Source: an uncultured Deinococcota bacterium (lineage in GTDB: Bacteria > Deinococcota > Deinococci > Deinococcales > Trueperaceae). From it: a DNA stretch of 35,375 bases. Position 1 is the stretch's first letter. The number at the start of each line of letters is the position of its first letter. Below are positions 1 to 4,281 of the stretch, piece after piece. The stretch lies in assembly GCA_947311535.1 (NCBI GenBank), contig CAMZLP010000190.1, positions 1-35,375 of the forward strand, given 5' to 3'. The notes below the pieces were generated by a model that was not told where the DNA came from, made no database searches, and saw only the letters and a program-made list of their open reading frames with translations. A program made the position numbers and the translations under genes.

Positions 1-993
1 ATTAACAGTGCTAAATATAAAGCATACAAATCTGTCAATAAATTTCATATTGAGCAAAATTTTGAAATTGGAAAAATTATCATTCAAAATCAGAATAAAA
101 ATAATTGGGGAAAATCTATTGTTGATACATTATCAAAAGACATAAACAAAGTAATTGACGGTGTAAAAGGTTATTCATCACAAAATTTGTGGAGAATGAG
201 ACAATTTTACCTTGAATATAAAGATAAACCCAAACTGCTTGAACTTGCCAAGAAAATACCTTGGGGGCAAAATTTGTTGATATTGCATAAAATAAAAACT
301 GATGAAGAAAAATTATATTATCTAACCGCAACAGACAAATTAGCTTGGAGTAGGGCTGTTTTGTTAAATCAAATTAAAGCAAATGCTTATCAACGATATT
401 TGGTTGATAAAAAAGCAAATAATTTTGATAAAACATTACCTGCTCATTTGTCAGAACAAGCTAATGAAGCGTTAAAAAGTGAATATAATCTTGATTTTCT
501 TGGAATAACAAAACCTGTTTTAGAAAGAGAATTGGAAAATAGATTGGTTGAAAATATACGAGATTTACTTCTGGAATTAGGGTATGGATTTAGTTTTATT
601 GGGAATCAATACAAGCTAAAATTAAACCAAAAAGAATATTTTATTGATTTACTTTTTTACAATCGAATTTTAAAATGTTTGGTTGCTATTGAACTAAAAA
701 CGGTTGAATTTGAATCTGAATTTGCTGGTAAAATGAATTTTTATCTTGAACTTTTAGACGAGCAAGAAAAACTTCCTGATGACAATCCTTCAATTGGAAT
801 TATATTATGTCCTGTAAAAGACAATATTGAAGTTGAATTTGCTCTAAGACCAAGCAATAAACCAATTGGAGTATCAGAATATAGCTTAACCAACAAATTA
901 CCAAAACAATTAGAAGGAAAAGTTCCAACATCAAAAGAATTAAAACAAATGCTAACAAAAGCTATACGTAATGCGGGCGAAAGTGATAAATAG
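1..993 (+). CDS. YhcG-family (DUF1016) PDDEXK nuclease, 5' end outside the window
   Basis: The reading frame is open from base 1, so the gene starts upstream. The first residues read into the DUF1016 N-terminal domain (YKAYKSVNKF, then NWGKSIVDTLSKDIN and SSQNLWRMRQFY), so the ATG at 187 is internal. The C-terminal half matches the YhcG PDDEXK domain: GYGFSFIGNQYKL, YFIDLLFYNR, VAIELKTVEFESEFAGKMNFYL and PSIGIILC, with D, E and K of the nuclease core in IDLLFY and IELK. The family is linked to mobile DNA and defence, but its exact role is unsettled. The natural family end lies near the LPKQLEGKVPTSKEL region; the last ten or so residues (KAIRNAGESDK) are encoded by the left arm of an attC-like repeat. 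The gene is the first visible member of a cassette array. Confidence 0.88.
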   Translation: MNSAKYKAYKSVNKFHIEQNFEIGKIIIQNQNKNNWGKSIVDTLSKDINKVIDGVKGYSSQNLWRMRQFYLEYKDKPKLLELAKKIPWGQNLLILHKIKTDEEKLYYLTATDKLAWSRAVLLNQIKANAYQRYLVDKKANNFDKTLPAHLSEQANEALKSEYNLDFLGITKPVLERELENRLVENIRDLLLELGYGFSFIGNQYKLKLNQKEYFIDLLFYNRILKCLVAIELKTVEFESEFAGKMNFYLELLDEQEKLPDDNPSIGIILCPVKDNIEVEFALRPSNKPIGVSEYSLTNKLPKQLEGKVPTSKELKQMLTKAIRNAGESDK

Positions 994-1080
994 AAAGTAT
1001 GTGCTAAAAATAAAATTCAGTAATAAACTGAAAAATAAGTGCTTCGGAAACCCGCACTACGCATAGCCAAACCGTTGTAC
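950..1080 (+). repeat. attC-like recombination site 1
   Basis: The left arm GCTATACGTAATGCGGG (961-977) is complementary, with a few transitions, to the right arm CCCGCACTACGCATAGCC (1051-1068). A left core-like TGCTAAC (950-956) and a right core GTTGTAC (1074-1080) flank the arms. The order matches attC sites 3 and 4 further on: short core, arm ending in CGGG, spacer, arm starting CCCG, core starting GTT. The left arm overlaps the 3' end of the nuclease gene. The right core lacks the canonical RRRY bases after GTT, so this is integron-like by architecture rather than by consensus. Confidence 0.65.
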
Positions 1081-1096
1081 AGCATTAAAAAACGAG

Positions 1097-1846
1097 ATGG
1101 ATTTTTACCAAAAATATTTGAAAGGAGAAACAATTTCAGTCTATAATGAAATAAATAAATTAGACTTTAACACTCTGAATGTTAAACAAAAAAAAGATAT
1201 TGAAAAAGTACTAAAAGAAACTTTTAATAGAGTTTCCTTTAACCTTGAAATAATTTATAACGAACTAATAAAAATAGGATATTTGTTTAAAACTGAGTAT
1301 AAATTCAATTTTGAAAGACCTATTCACGTTCCATTAAACAATACTGAATCTCTTATTGAGAAACTCGATTTAGCAGTTAGTCCATTTGGATTTGTTCCTT
1401 TATCGTTAAAATATTTTTATAGAATTGTTGGTGGAGTAAATTTTGTTTGGGACTTTGAAACTAATGAGGATTTTATGTGGAATATGGCTGACCCCATTCA
1501 AGTTTCAAGTATTGATAGTATTGTGCAAGAAGTAACTAACGAATTTTGGAAAGAAGATATTCAACAATATGTTGATGATGAGGATTTTGGATGTGCTTTT
1601 TTAGATATATTGGCAGATGACTTACATAAAGATAATGTTAGTGGTGGACAACCTTACGCAATTGAAATAACGAAAAAACAAAGAATTGACTCTAAATTTA
1701 TGAATGAGCCGAATGACACGACTTTTATAAACTATTTAAGAATATGTTTTGACAATTGTGGATTTCCTGGATTAGCAAGACCCGATATGAAAAATGAATA
1801 TAATTCATTCTTTGAAAAAGTAAAACCGCAAATGAAAAAAATATGA
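1097..1846 (+). CDS. Cassette-borne protein of unknown function, 249 aa
   Basis: The start ATG lies 23 bases after the core GTTGTAC, the usual layout for a cassette gene. I do not recognise the family. The protein is acidic and soluble, with no signal peptide or membrane segment. The middle has a conserved-looking stretch (SPFGFVPLSLKYFYRIVGGVNF) followed by MADPIQVSS and a C-terminal CGFPGLARPD, the kind of pattern seen in SMI1/KNR4-like or other cassette hypotheticals, but the match is not good enough to name. It overlaps the next start by four bases (ATGA at 1843-1846), so the cassette was probably two-gene and translationally coupled. Codon use is very AT-rich, like the other cassette genes. 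Confidence 0.75.
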   Translation: MDFYQKYLKGETISVYNEINKLDFNTLNVKQKKDIEKVLKETFNRVSFNLEIIYNELIKIGYLFKTEYKFNFERPIHVPLNNTESLIEKLDLAVSPFGFVPLSLKYFYRIVGGVNFVWDFETNEDFMWNMADPIQVSSIDSIVQEVTNEFWKEDIQQYVDDEDFGCAFLDILADDLHKDNVSGGQPYAIEITKKQRIDSKFMNEPNDTTFINYLRICFDNCGFPGLARPDMKNEYNSFFEKVKPQMKKI

Positions 1847-1930
1847 TTACAATTCAAGATATACTAAAAGCTAAAAAGAGAATTTCTCCGTACATAATTG
1901 AGACTCCATTAGAATACTCAGATAGAAGCG
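1843..1930 (+). pseudogene. 5' stub of a PLP-dependent threonine/serine dehydratase-like gene, cut by an IS
   Basis: The ATG at 1843 overlaps the previous stop. About 29 codons remain, with ITIQDILKAKKRISPYIIETP, close to the N-terminus of fold-type II PLP enzymes such as threonine dehydratase or serine racemase (the usual pattern is an I-x-x-A-x-x-R-I-x-x-x-I-x-x-TP motif). The lysine that binds PLP and the rest of the enzyme are absent. At about 1930 the frame runs into the left end of an IS3-like element. No continuation of the gene is visible to the right of that element. Family assignment rests on a short stretch only. Confidence 0.5.
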
Positions 1931-1990
1931 GACCCCAAAAACTAGACAACTCCAATTGGAAAGAAGATAATAAAAAAAGAAGTTAAAAAG

Positions 1991-2272
1991 ATGAAAAGAA
2001 GATATAGAAACCATAGTTCGACATTTAAAGCTAAAGTAGCAATAGAAGCAGCTAAGGAAGAAAAGACAACAGCAGAACTGGCTCAAGAATTTGGAGTACA
2101 TAGTAGTCAGATAGCAGCCTGGAAGAAACAACTATTAACAAATGCTGCTGAACTATTTGAAAATACTGCTGATAAGAAAAGGGATAAGGATTCAGAAATA
2201 AAAGACTTACATGCCAAGATAGGTGAATTAGTGCTTGAAAGAGATTTTTTGTCCAAAGGACTCAAGCTTTGA
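1991..2272 (+). CDS. IS3-family transposase OrfA (helix-turn-helix subunit)
   Basis: A 93-aa protein of the usual OrfA length. The N-terminus (RRYRNHSSTFKAKVAIEAAK) and AELAQEFGVHSSQIAAWKKQ form the HTH_Tnp_1 DNA-binding domain. The C-terminal half (KDSEIKDLHAKIGELVLERDFL) is the leucine-zipper coiled coil that normally continues, after a -1 frameshift, into OrfB. In intact elements OrfA binds the IS ends and is made alone or as the OrfAB fusion. OrfB is broken here, so this protein can at most act as an orphan DNA binder. Purine-rich sequence just upstream could serve as a ribosome binding site. Confidence 0.85.
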   Translation: MKRRYRNHSSTFKAKVAIEAAKEEKTTAELAQEFGVHSSQIAAWKKQLLTNAAELFENTADKKRDKDSEIKDLHAKIGELVLERDFLSKGLKL

Positions 2273-2337
2273 GTCTCGCTGAAAGAAAAGCCATGATTAA
2301 TAGAAATACAAAATTAATTTCAAATAAATCAGGATAG
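2269..2337 (+). pseudogene. 5' remnant of IS3-family transposase OrfB
   Basis: In the -1 frame relative to OrfA, the sequence reads LSLAERKAMINRNTKLISN, the usual IS150-type OrfB opening, and then hits TAG at 2335. The entire integrase catalytic core is missing. This shows that the element has lost most of its right half. Confidence 0.65.
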
Positions 2338-2484
2338 CAACTTAACTAATAGAAGACCAAGTAAGAATAAATAACAGACTTTAGTTATTATTAGTTGCTA
2401 CACTTCGCTATATGTCCTTTATTCGTAGCTATAATGAACTATCGTAAAGAAAGAAATTAAGCTATACTTTGAATCGGAAAGGGT

Positions 2485-2511
2485 GGAGTTGCGTATATAC
2501 TCGTGTTGTGC
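2485..2511 (+). repeat. Right end of a damaged attC-like site (core 2505-2511)
   Basis: GTTGTGC at 2505-2511 is an exact reverse complement of GCACAAC at 3155-3161, which opens attC-like site 3. In integrons the first bases of a cassette pair with the R'' core near its own end, so 2505 marks a cassette boundary. The bases before it (GTTGCGTATATACTCGT) look like a divergent right arm, but the matching left arm was lost with the IS-related damage. Confidence 0.45.
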
Positions 2512-2525
2512 TTAATGCGAAAAAA

Positions 2526-3140
2526 ATGAATAGTGAAGAGATAATTAAATATTTAAGAAACGAAATTGAACCAATGGAAGACCAATTCCTTGGACTAAGT
2601 TATCGTGTTTCTGCATACTTAAAAGACGGAACTTATTTGCCGTGTGTTATTTTTAGAAACCCTGAAAAGAAAATCGACCAAGCAATAAAACGATTCAAGG
2701 AAGAAAGGACTGGAAAAAGTATTTTCGCTAAATCTTCTGGAGTTGACGGCTATAGAGATATTGTAAAACTGTTTGTAACAGGAGGTAATAAAATAAACGA
2801 CTATGATATTGAAAAAGTTGAAAAAAGTCCTTTTGCATTCCCTCAAAATATTTTATCTACAATAAGAGGCGAAACAACAATGGCTTGGACAGGTTTTGTA
2901 GCCAAAATGAAAGACGATAATATATTTGGATTTGGAACTTCATTTCTATTTGACTTTTTTAAAATGCCAGATGGATATGAGGCAAATGACATAAAAGAAA
3001 TAATCAATCACAGTTATATTTCAAAAACAGGCGAATTGAAACCTCATAAAGTTCCTTTTTTCGAAAGACCAGAGGACTATGACGAATCTGTAATTAATAG
3101 GGAAAGACCATTTTTTGAATGCTATTTAGACGGATTATAA
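2526..3140 (+). CDS. Cassette-borne protein of unknown function, 204 aa
   Basis: The start ATG at 2526 is preferred because it lies 14 bases after the cassette boundary core, like the other cassette genes; the longer frame from the TTG at 2469 would begin in the preceding cassette. I do not recognise the family. The protein is soluble, mixed alpha/beta, with LSYRVSAYLKDGTYLPCVIFRN near the N-terminus, a central SPFAFPQNILSTIRGETTMAW and FGFGTSFLFDFFKMPDGY. It has no signal peptide, membrane segment or obvious catalytic motif. It is the only gene in a cassette bounded by 2505 and site 3. Confidence 0.75.
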   Translation: MNSEEIIKYLRNEIEPMEDQFLGLSYRVSAYLKDGTYLPCVIFRNPEKKIDQAIKRFKEERTGKSIFAKSSGVDGYRDIVKLFVTGGNKINDYDIEKVEKSPFAFPQNILSTIRGETTMAWTGFVAKMKDDNIFGFGTSFLFDFFKMPDGYEANDIKEIINHSYISKTGELKPHKVPFFERPEDYDESVINRERPFFECYLDGL

Positions 3141-3154
3141 AAGAAAGCACTAAA

Positions 3155-3342
3155 GCACAACAATGGCTATAATTAATACGGGTTTTGGTGCTTAACCCAA
3201 AGAGAAGAGCCTTGAATGAAGTCCGCAAAATTTACAATTTTGCGTGTTAATTATTAAAGGAAAAATTGTAAATTTGGCTACGAGATAAACCGAAAGTTCA
3301 ATCCTTCGAAATCCCGTACTAACCATAGCCGAGACGTTACCT
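3155..3342 (+). repeat. attC-like recombination site 3
   Basis: R''-like GCACAAC (3155-3161), left arm GGCTATAATTAATACGGG (3165-3182), spacer with an internal inverted repeat (AAATTTACAATTTT near 3230 and AAAAATTGTAAATTT near 3261), right arm CCCGTACTAACCATAGCC (3313-3330), then core GTTACCT (3336-3342). The two arms are imperfectly complementary. The site is nearly the same as site 4 over its whole length, including a run of more than 40 identical bases at the left. At about 188 bp it is longer than typical class 1 integron attC sites. Confidence 0.72.
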
Positions 3343-3363
3343 GCAAGCCGAAAAAAAACGAGA

Positions 3364-3822
3364 ATGATTCAAGACCATATCACAGTAAAAAATAGACATA
3401 TAAAATTCATAAAAACTATATGCGAAACTGAAATAGTTTACGGATTGAAAAATGAAAACGGATATGCGACTTCAAGTTCTATGCATTATGATGATGAAAA
3501 TGGAGAACCAATTGGAATGATTTGTTTTTGGGCTGAAAAAGTCAGAGCAAAATCTTGTATAAAGGACGGTTGGAAAAAATATCAAGTTGCAGAAATTAAG
3601 TTGTCTGAATTTATGGAAAACTTTTGTGTGGGAATGGAAAATGACGGACTCTTAATCGGAACCCAATTTGACCAAAATATGTTTGGATTTGAAGCAGAAC
3701 CTTTAGAATTAATTTTGGAATTATCAACTGAATTAAAAACACTCGGAAAAAATTTGAATTTTAAGAAATATGACGGAATTGAAGATATAGATAAGCAAAC
3801 AAAATCTGTAATGAACGAATAA
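3364..3822 (+). CDS. DUF2750 domain protein, cassette-borne
   Basis: A 152-aa protein that fits DUF2750: GEPIGMICFWAEKVRAKSC, then WKKYQVAEIKLSEFMENF, GMENDGLLIGTQFDQNMFG and FEAEPLELILEL. The family is small, soluble and of unknown function, and is often found on mobile or accessory DNA. The ATG is 28 bases after the core GTTACCT. The cassette is textbook in layout: it begins TTACCTGCAAGCC and its end, just after the stop codon, is GGCCTGCAGGTAAC, the reverse complement with one mismatch. Nothing in the gene looks damaged. Confidence 0.85.
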   Translation: MIQDHITVKNRHIKFIKTICETEIVYGLKNENGYATSSSMHYDDENGEPIGMICFWAEKVRAKSCIKDGWKKYQVAEIKLSEFMENFCVGMENDGLLIGTQFDQNMFGFEAEPLELILELSTELKTLGKNLNFKKYDGIEDIDKQTKSVMNE

Positions 3823-3829
3823 GGCCTGC

Positions 3830-4019
3830 AGGTAACAATGGCTATAATTAATACGGGTTTTGGTGCTTAACCCAAAGTTAAGTACCTTGAATAAAGTCCG
3901 CAAAATTTTCAATTTTACGTGTCTATTGAAATAAAGAAAAAATTAAAAATTTGGCTAAGTGAAAGTTCGAAAGTTCAGTTCTCTGAATTCCCGTACTAAC
4001 CATAGCCTAGACGTTATAT
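3830..4019 (+). repeat. attC-like recombination site 4 (last visible of the array)
   Basis: R''-like AGGTAAC (3830-3836), exactly complementary to GTTACCT at the start of the same cassette; left arm GGCTATAATTAATACGGG (3840-3857); right arm CCCGTACTAACCATAGCC (3990-4007); core GTTATAT (4013-4019). The spacer is a diverged copy of the site 3 spacer. No further site is seen to the right, so this marks the right edge of the array or the start of a truncated last cassette. Confidence 0.72.
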
Positions 4020-4281
4020 TTAACTAAAAAATTAAAAAAATAGCCACAATTCTAATACTCTTAGTCAGATAAACTAAAACTTTGCTCAGCCGCACAAATT
4101 TTAAGTTTTTTTATAAAGCTCATCAGAAACATTGCTAATTTGAATTATTTTTGGCACAAGATTATATTAATATGTCTAGCACATTAAAACATGCTTGAGG
4201 CATTATATTGCCTTATTCAAGCTTTATTAGTTAGAATATCAATGAGAGAGCCATCAATAAGATGAAAGACGGGTATCTAAT
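4020..4281. other. Intergenic stretch between cassette array and chromosomal genes
   Basis: AT-rich and without a credible gene. It must contain the junction between the cassette array and the different-looking DNA to the right. Near its end is an inverted repeat (4193-4222): GCTTGAGGCA, a 6-base centre, then TGCCTTATTCAAGC, with a three-base bulge. It could be a weak terminator, an operator for the downstream phosphatase gene, or both. Confidence 0.5.

Follow-up and report, generated by a model that had tools for sequence, protein, structure and literature searches.

The first 4024 bases of contig G000:C190, from an uncultured Deinococcota bacterium, hold cassettes delimited by GTT trinucleotides and by imperfect hairpins of ~117-176 nt that resemble the attC recombination sites of integrons. 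This raises the question of whether the locus is an integron, and of which enzyme moves its cassettes. The window analysed is the complete contig (35,375 bases) of a 2.7 Mb draft genome in 191 contigs; because it is the entire contig, nothing is readable to the left of base 1. The array is very probably one section, by now partly decayed, of an integron-like system for gene capture, the dedicated tyrosine recombinase of which has its gene on another contig of this genome, C70; this reading is drawn from sequence comparison. Each cassette consists of one short gene and a 3' attC-like site. Its start, GTT and six variable bases, pairs with the bases preceding its own site (R''). In the excised circle the two cassette ends would join into one long imperfect hairpin, of which the bottom strand folds best. 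The C70 recombinase, whose gene lies beside an attI site, would use the GTT of attI and attC to insert and excise cassettes.

The window genome codes for two Phage_integrase proteins. One is an enzyme of 277 amino acids (aa) that keeps the catalytic residues, encoded on the minus strand at approximately C70:26135-26968. Roughly fifty bases upstream of its gene, in the opposite direction, lies the attI-like site GGTGGAGTTGCGTATATACTCGT. Next comes GTTACCAACCATTAG, which has the form of a typical cassette start, and there the contig ends. When up to 3 mismatches are allowed GGTGGAGTTGCGTATATACTCGT is present in exactly two places of the genome, at C70 27026-27048 and at positions 2482-2504 (plus strand) of the window, directly 5' of the GTT of the cassette named C below. 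The match between the two copies spans 70 bases with 80% identity (window 2438-2507, plus strand, against the integrase promoter/attI region at C70 26979-27048). The window therefore carries attI and the flanking promoter region without the integrase gene, and no residual integrase gene was found when looked for left of this attI. An attI thus adjoins the recombinase gene, and cassettes are inserted at it. In Flavobacteriaceae the members of the recombinase family, mostly 375-395 aa long, also stand beside arrays and attI is usually located just after their stop codon. The attI-like sites contain short palindromes. The second Phage_integrase protein (C48, 330 aa) scores 53 bits in the family hidden Markov model (HMM), far from both the family and IntI, and examination of its neighbourhood revealed no cassettes. 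A first-pass annotation of the window, made from its letters alone, had proposed an integron-like array with a divergent recombinase and had counted absence of such an enzyme against the idea. Both halves of the proposal hold, with the dedicated recombinase and attI in the same genome; the enzyme has no IntI-defining insertion and is more divergent than the "IntI-type" protein envisaged.

The two complete cassettes of the window display the proposed anatomy. Cassette C (2505-3335, plus strand) starts with GTTGTGCTTAATGCG and has an open reading frame (ORF) of unknown function at 2526-3140, an R'' ending at 3161 and an attC-like site at 3162-3335 (plus strand) with arms GGCTATAATTAATACGGG and CCCGTACTAACCATAGCC. 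Cassette D (3336-4012, plus strand) starts with GTTACCTGCAAGCC and codes for a DUF2750 protein at 3364-3822 (E-value 3.3e-25); its R'' ends at 3836 and its attC-like site occupies 3837-4012 (plus strand). A third site is found at 957-1073. Left arms in the window read AAC-nnn-GCTATA..TAATRCGGG and right arms CCCGYACTA..CATAGCC-nnnnC-GTT, so that the repeats, arms and positions reported in the first-pass annotation were recovered. The complementarity it had described between cassette ends was confirmed as well: the start GTTACCTGCAAGCC of cassette D is complementary to its own R'' at 13 of 14 positions, while GTTGTGC at the start of cassette C pairs with GCACAAC and the pairing continues further after a one-base shift.

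The right-arm pattern CCGNACTANNCATAGCCNNNNCGTT was used to search the genome collection and matched at least 115 stretches; among the matches listed, hosts are mostly marine Flavobacteriaceae, with Bacteroidales, Neomarinimicrobiota, Calditrichota, KSB1 and others also represented. A two-arm scan paired a left arm with 120 of 133 right arms, mostly ~119 or 180 nt apart. For 101 of these related sites the bases just 5' of the site were taken as R'' and a complement starting with GTT was sought in the upstream 4.5 kb. Nine of ten bases were complementary for 37% of the sites versus 0.6% in a control with R'' exchanged among sites, placing end-to-end pairing well above chance. The cassette starts identified in this way often follow other site subtypes or attI-like sites, and the search pattern therefore covers only one branch of the family. 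A strict scan retrieved 276 cassettes at 90 loci; 256 of these are unique, and the median length is 835 bp. The site end is the start of the next cassette in 156 of the 276; R'' equals that next start in only 8 of the 156, showing that pairing is with the cassette's own start. A region of Lacinutrix neustonica has at least 83 cassettes within 68 kb in a single orientation, with no chain on the opposite strand.

Near-identical cassettes are found between unrelated neighbours, and the identity starts and stops at GTT. In Tenacibaculum a 819-bp cassette located at attI has a second copy deeper in the same array with 100% identity. The cleanest case of cassettes moving as units is provided by two plasmids, NZ_CP092416.1 of a Flagellimonas from a Chinese coral and NZ_CP022516.1 of an Arenibacter from Sweden. 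Over 9,908 bp, through the integrase and attI up to and including GTT, their identity is 99.99%, and beyond it they carry different cassettes. Exchange at GTT is precise as judged from these alignments, and the recombinase presumably cleaves at a defined point within this trinucleotide.

The arms of the sites covary. Among 135 chain-verified sites the pairing excess reaches 0.184 in one main register, compared to a maximum of 0.027 in 200 shuffles. Of the neighbouring registers only register 4 (0.11) departs from values near zero, probably because some sites are shifted by one base. The sites are imperfect hairpins whose R'' and R' ends pair in the circular cassette, as expected of attC. Mismatches are distributed asymmetrically, A.C exceeding G.T in 106 sites and the reverse being found in 9. 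Read from the bottom strand, a top-strand A.C mismatch becomes a T.G pair, so that the bottom strand forms an almost continuous stem. Such a stem is seen in bottom-strand folds of cassettes C and D, the fold that the first-pass annotation had put forward for inspection. The mean folding dG of predicted structures is -32.8 for the bottom strand versus -28.5. At position 10 of the cassette start, A stands opposite C in 201 of 256 cassettes, a filtered set for which this A and part of the allowed partners were themselves selection criteria; unfiltered counts have the same leading combinations. The excess of A.C over G.T favours folding of the bottom strand, and the recombinase would act on that strand in its single-stranded, folded form. 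In classical attC sites extrahelical bases contribute to bottom-strand preference; in the window-type sites, unlike those of IntI integrons, the bias is carried by the A.C/G.T asymmetry. The classical sites likewise prefer the bottom strand (PMC6393395).

The system shares with IntI integrons (class 1, the Vibrio superintegron, archaeal integrons) a recombinase, attI and a single-orientation array of one-gene cassettes, attC hairpin ends that pair in the circle, a GTT boundary and a favoured bottom strand. It could be that the array is an ordinary IntI integron, or a CALIN (attC cluster without integrase) served by an IntI encoded elsewhere, and a true IntI above the model cut-off is indeed present in 3 of 15 host genomes searched (G011, G013, G015). 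This is very improbable. No chains of these cassettes were found near the true IntI genes (loci L145-L147) and most array genomes have no IntI above the cut-off. As for the only two Phage_integrase proteins of the window genome, the attI-adjacent one falls below the IntI cut-off and the second is remote from IntI as well as from the family. The 277-aa enzyme matches the IntI model TIGR02249 in two split stretches, with 226 bits versus a cut-off of 265. The spacing between the box I Arg and HxLRHS is 89-90 in 36 family members, compared to 131 in IntI and 95-96 in XerC/XerD, and the additional domain of IntI (patch III/I2 helix) is missing from all 36. The system is therefore not an IntI integron by definition, though by its compared sequences it would work like one. 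The sites differ too: only 21 of 256 unique cores fit GTTRRRY (GTTRRRY / RYYYAAC), a deviation that had been noticed in the window itself, pairing extends beyond seven bases and there is a fixed A.C position.

Family members score at least 290 bits in the family HMM, full-length IntI 231-239 and other recombinases at most 210. The phylogenetic tree separates host XerC/XerD from a group (100/100) that comprises the family, IntI and two distant recombinases, in which IntI can be placed inside or beside the family. The 277-aa enzyme has affinity to XerA: it scores 238 bits in NF040815, "site-specific tyrosine recombinase/integron integrase" (XerA_Arch; cut-off 220), its best relative in the PDB is XerA (5hxy) and its predicted structure (mean predicted local distance difference test, pLDDT, 82) matches XerA and IntI4 structures. 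This Xer-like character, together with the short palindromes of the attI-like sites, would suit XerCD/dif-like modules (compare pdif of Acinetobacter plasmids) recombined as double-stranded sites by host XerC/XerD. Such modules are a most doubtful explanation, given that the attC-like sites are mostly hairpins of 116-187 nt with covarying arms, in contrast to the 28-bp dif, that host XerC/XerD form a separate clade and that none of ten control neighbourhoods of host XerC/XerD carries an array. XerA resolves chromosome dimers at dif, whereas the family gene heads cassette arrays, and most of its hosts have several tyrosine recombinases, the family enzyme among them. The least probable reading, that the repeats are repetitive extragenic palindromic (REP) or bacterial interspersed mosaic element (BIME) sequences, or transposon ends, moved by another enzyme, has in its favour the long intergenic hairpins and a nearby IS3 remnant, but is refuted by exchange points that coincide with repeat ends, by R'' pairing with its own unit's start and not the next, and by single-orientation arrays headed by a dedicated recombinase; exchangeable cassettes lie between such repeats in dozens of genomes, contrary to the ordinary intergenic REP elements that the first-pass annotation had considered. 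Canonical IntI integrons, REP elements and XerCD/dif modules were rejected on account of the missing domain, the exchange of units, the hairpin sites and the separate Xer clade.

Most Bacteroidota members, unlike IntI, have an additional N-terminal domain with a predicted beta-beta-alpha-beta-beta-alpha fold. Its best structural match is the HARP domain of SMARCAL1 (4o66, E-value 0.027, probability 0.98), and Pfam HARP gives a sub-threshold match (8.7e-5) in one of nine long members. Its assignment as HARP-like, which comes from predicted models, is suggestive only; such a domain might read the hairpin or its junction. A possibly HARP-like N-terminal region is present at loci L137, L140, L135 and L141, the 599-aa protein of the latter seeming by eye to have several repeats. 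Maribacter (L138 7580-8422 and 16743-17171) has a distinct, more distant 280-aa recombinase in near-duplicate copies close to an array.

Several points weigh against assigning the window array to an integron-like system with a dedicated recombinase. The evidence for excision and integration is wholly comparative. The array is decayed, having lost the site of cassette B and gained an insertion sequence (IS) remnant, and no integrase adjoins it. A chimeric join within the contig is possible because the genome is a draft of 191 contigs. Only 8 of 20 family neighbourhoods, picked blind to arrays and submitted to a strict test, have chains of at least three cassettes within ~10 kb, so that some family members may have other roles. 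Inspection by eye, not blind, finds attI-like palindromes before a GTT start in more than 8 of the 20.

Survey of the family with a membership cut-off of E < 1e-75 found it in 111 of 396 genomes (~28%) sampled evenly from Bacteroidota, the phylum of Tenacibaculum (G003). In the phylum of the window genome it occurs in one of 111 genomes, the window genome itself, whose integron-like system was therefore most likely acquired, as far as this sampling of sequences indicates. On a Chryseobacterium plasmid (NZ_CP041688.1, L236) a GTTGGGAAAAATCG..CGATTTTTCCCAAC unit is repeated after a family recombinase, in what looks like an unusual subtype of array. It is somewhat probable that the integron-like system represents a second integron class that is common in Bacteroidota and has also reached other phyla, its recombinases using folded single-stranded attC without the I2 helix, replaced perhaps by the HARP-like fork-binding domain or by the G.T-biased pairing, and that IntI may derive from within it.

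Integrons were considered rare in Bacteroidota, yet the family recombinase is frequent there and would be missed by screens that require the IntI domain. An early integron survey required the IntI patch/domain (PMC2426708). IntegronFinder 2.0 named one complete integron in Bacteroidetes proper, in Salinibacter (PMC9024848), and a Tenacibaculum genome had no integrons according to IntegronFinder (PMC10013915). A classification of tyrosine recombinases described the insertion as "not fully conserved" in an integron-like subgroup, yet called it essential for integron function (PMC8138268). The I2 helix is regarded as the innovation that enabled single-strand recombination (PMC7790495). The family recombinase does not have this extra domain, thought essential in all known integrons, and makes it testable whether single-strand recombination really needs the I2 helix. 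No prior description of the system was found in the open-access literature, subscription papers and preprints being outside this coverage.

Plasmids of Flagellimonas, Bacteroides, Myroides and Riemerella (L234, L237-L240) carry erm(F), tet(X2), blaOXA-347 and estT as cassettes; ere(D), catB and aadS are probably also cassettes of this system on the same plasmids. The erm(F) cassette runs from GTTATGCGGCAGC to GCCGACCGCATAAC followed by a 120-nt site, with its gene antisense to the array. It is located 3' of attI in the Flagellimonas plasmid, 3' of the blaOXA-347 cassette in Bacteroides xylanisolvens and Myroides, 3' of the estT cassette in Riemerella and 3' of the tet(X2) cassette in Bacteroides fragilis, and its junctions use the same GTT in every context. 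Acinetobacter plasmid p80-1-2-tetX3 has a "xerD" gene whose N-terminally truncated product shares 49% identity with the window genome's recombinase. After this gene come an attI-like palindrome and GTTATGTGCCATTTTTGAATGACA, which is almost the same as the start of the tet(X2) cassette, GTTATGGGCCATTTTTGAATGACA; the tet(X3) cassette has a degenerate 3' site. This "xerD"-tet(X3) segment of NZ_CP041297.1 (L241 4070-6260) looks by its sequence like an integrase-attI-cassette remnant. The "xerD"-tet(X) segments of Acinetobacter and Flavobacteriaceae share with the window system a related recombinase before an attI-like site and cassette start, and differ from it in that the Acinetobacter recombinase copy is truncated. 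The presence of "xerD" beside tet(X) was reported without a mechanism, with a call to test whether XerD mobilises tet(X) (PMC7473080). The integron-like family may explain the linkage, and suggests a mechanism for assembly of erm(F), tet(X), blaOXA-347 and estT in Bacteroides, Riemerella, Myroides and Acinetobacter.

The remainder of the window array bears the marks of its decay. Cassette B (1074-1846, plus strand), with start GTTGTACAGCATT, has an ORF of unknown family at 1097-1846 with no Pfam match; its own attC-like site is missing, and a search for its R'' was negative. Between cassette B and the attI copy, positions 1853-2437 hold an IS3-type transposase orfA remnant (1991-2272, plus strand; HTH_Tnp_1, 1.5e-7) together with short pieces of coding debris that have no assignment, which points to the decay of an integron head that was once complete. 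The array keeps a core, GTTATATTTAAC (4013-4024, plus strand), at its 3' border; this is either the start of a lost cassette or the junction with the chromosome, and no matching R'' was found downstream of it. The array, at the left edge of the window as first described, has its right edge nearer 4024 than 4019. The ATG codons lie 23, 21 and 28 nt beyond the cassette starts at 1074, 2505 and 3336, respectively. These are the only three starts, not the four initially read, because the first frame is cut by the contig end; inverted repeats do part the frames at three sites, except that cassette B has lost its own and the first left arm shares bases with the 3' end of the first frame. No match was found in the window in the scan for viral-contig patterns or in the Rfam scan at gathering thresholds. 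The right 31 kb look like ordinary chromosome, with dnaN, dnaA, mnmG, rsmG, parA and parB named by eye.

The first frame (1-993, plus strand), in cassette A, lost its 5' end at the contig edge and codes for a DUF1016/YhcG PDDEXK nuclease (Pfam YhcG_C 5.7e-62, DUF1016_N 3e-36), which together with DUF2750 agrees with the cargo named in the first-pass annotation. Its attC-like site (957-1073, or 954-1073 with AAC at 954-956, plus strand) is of the 120-nt type and stops before the GTT at 1074; the position-specific scoring matrix pair gives 45 bits for the right arm and 30 bits for the left arm. The carboxyl terminus of the nuclease (AIRNAG...) is encoded at 954-993 by the left arm of this site. 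As the last YhcG codons lie within the arm, attC-like sites can supply protein tails.

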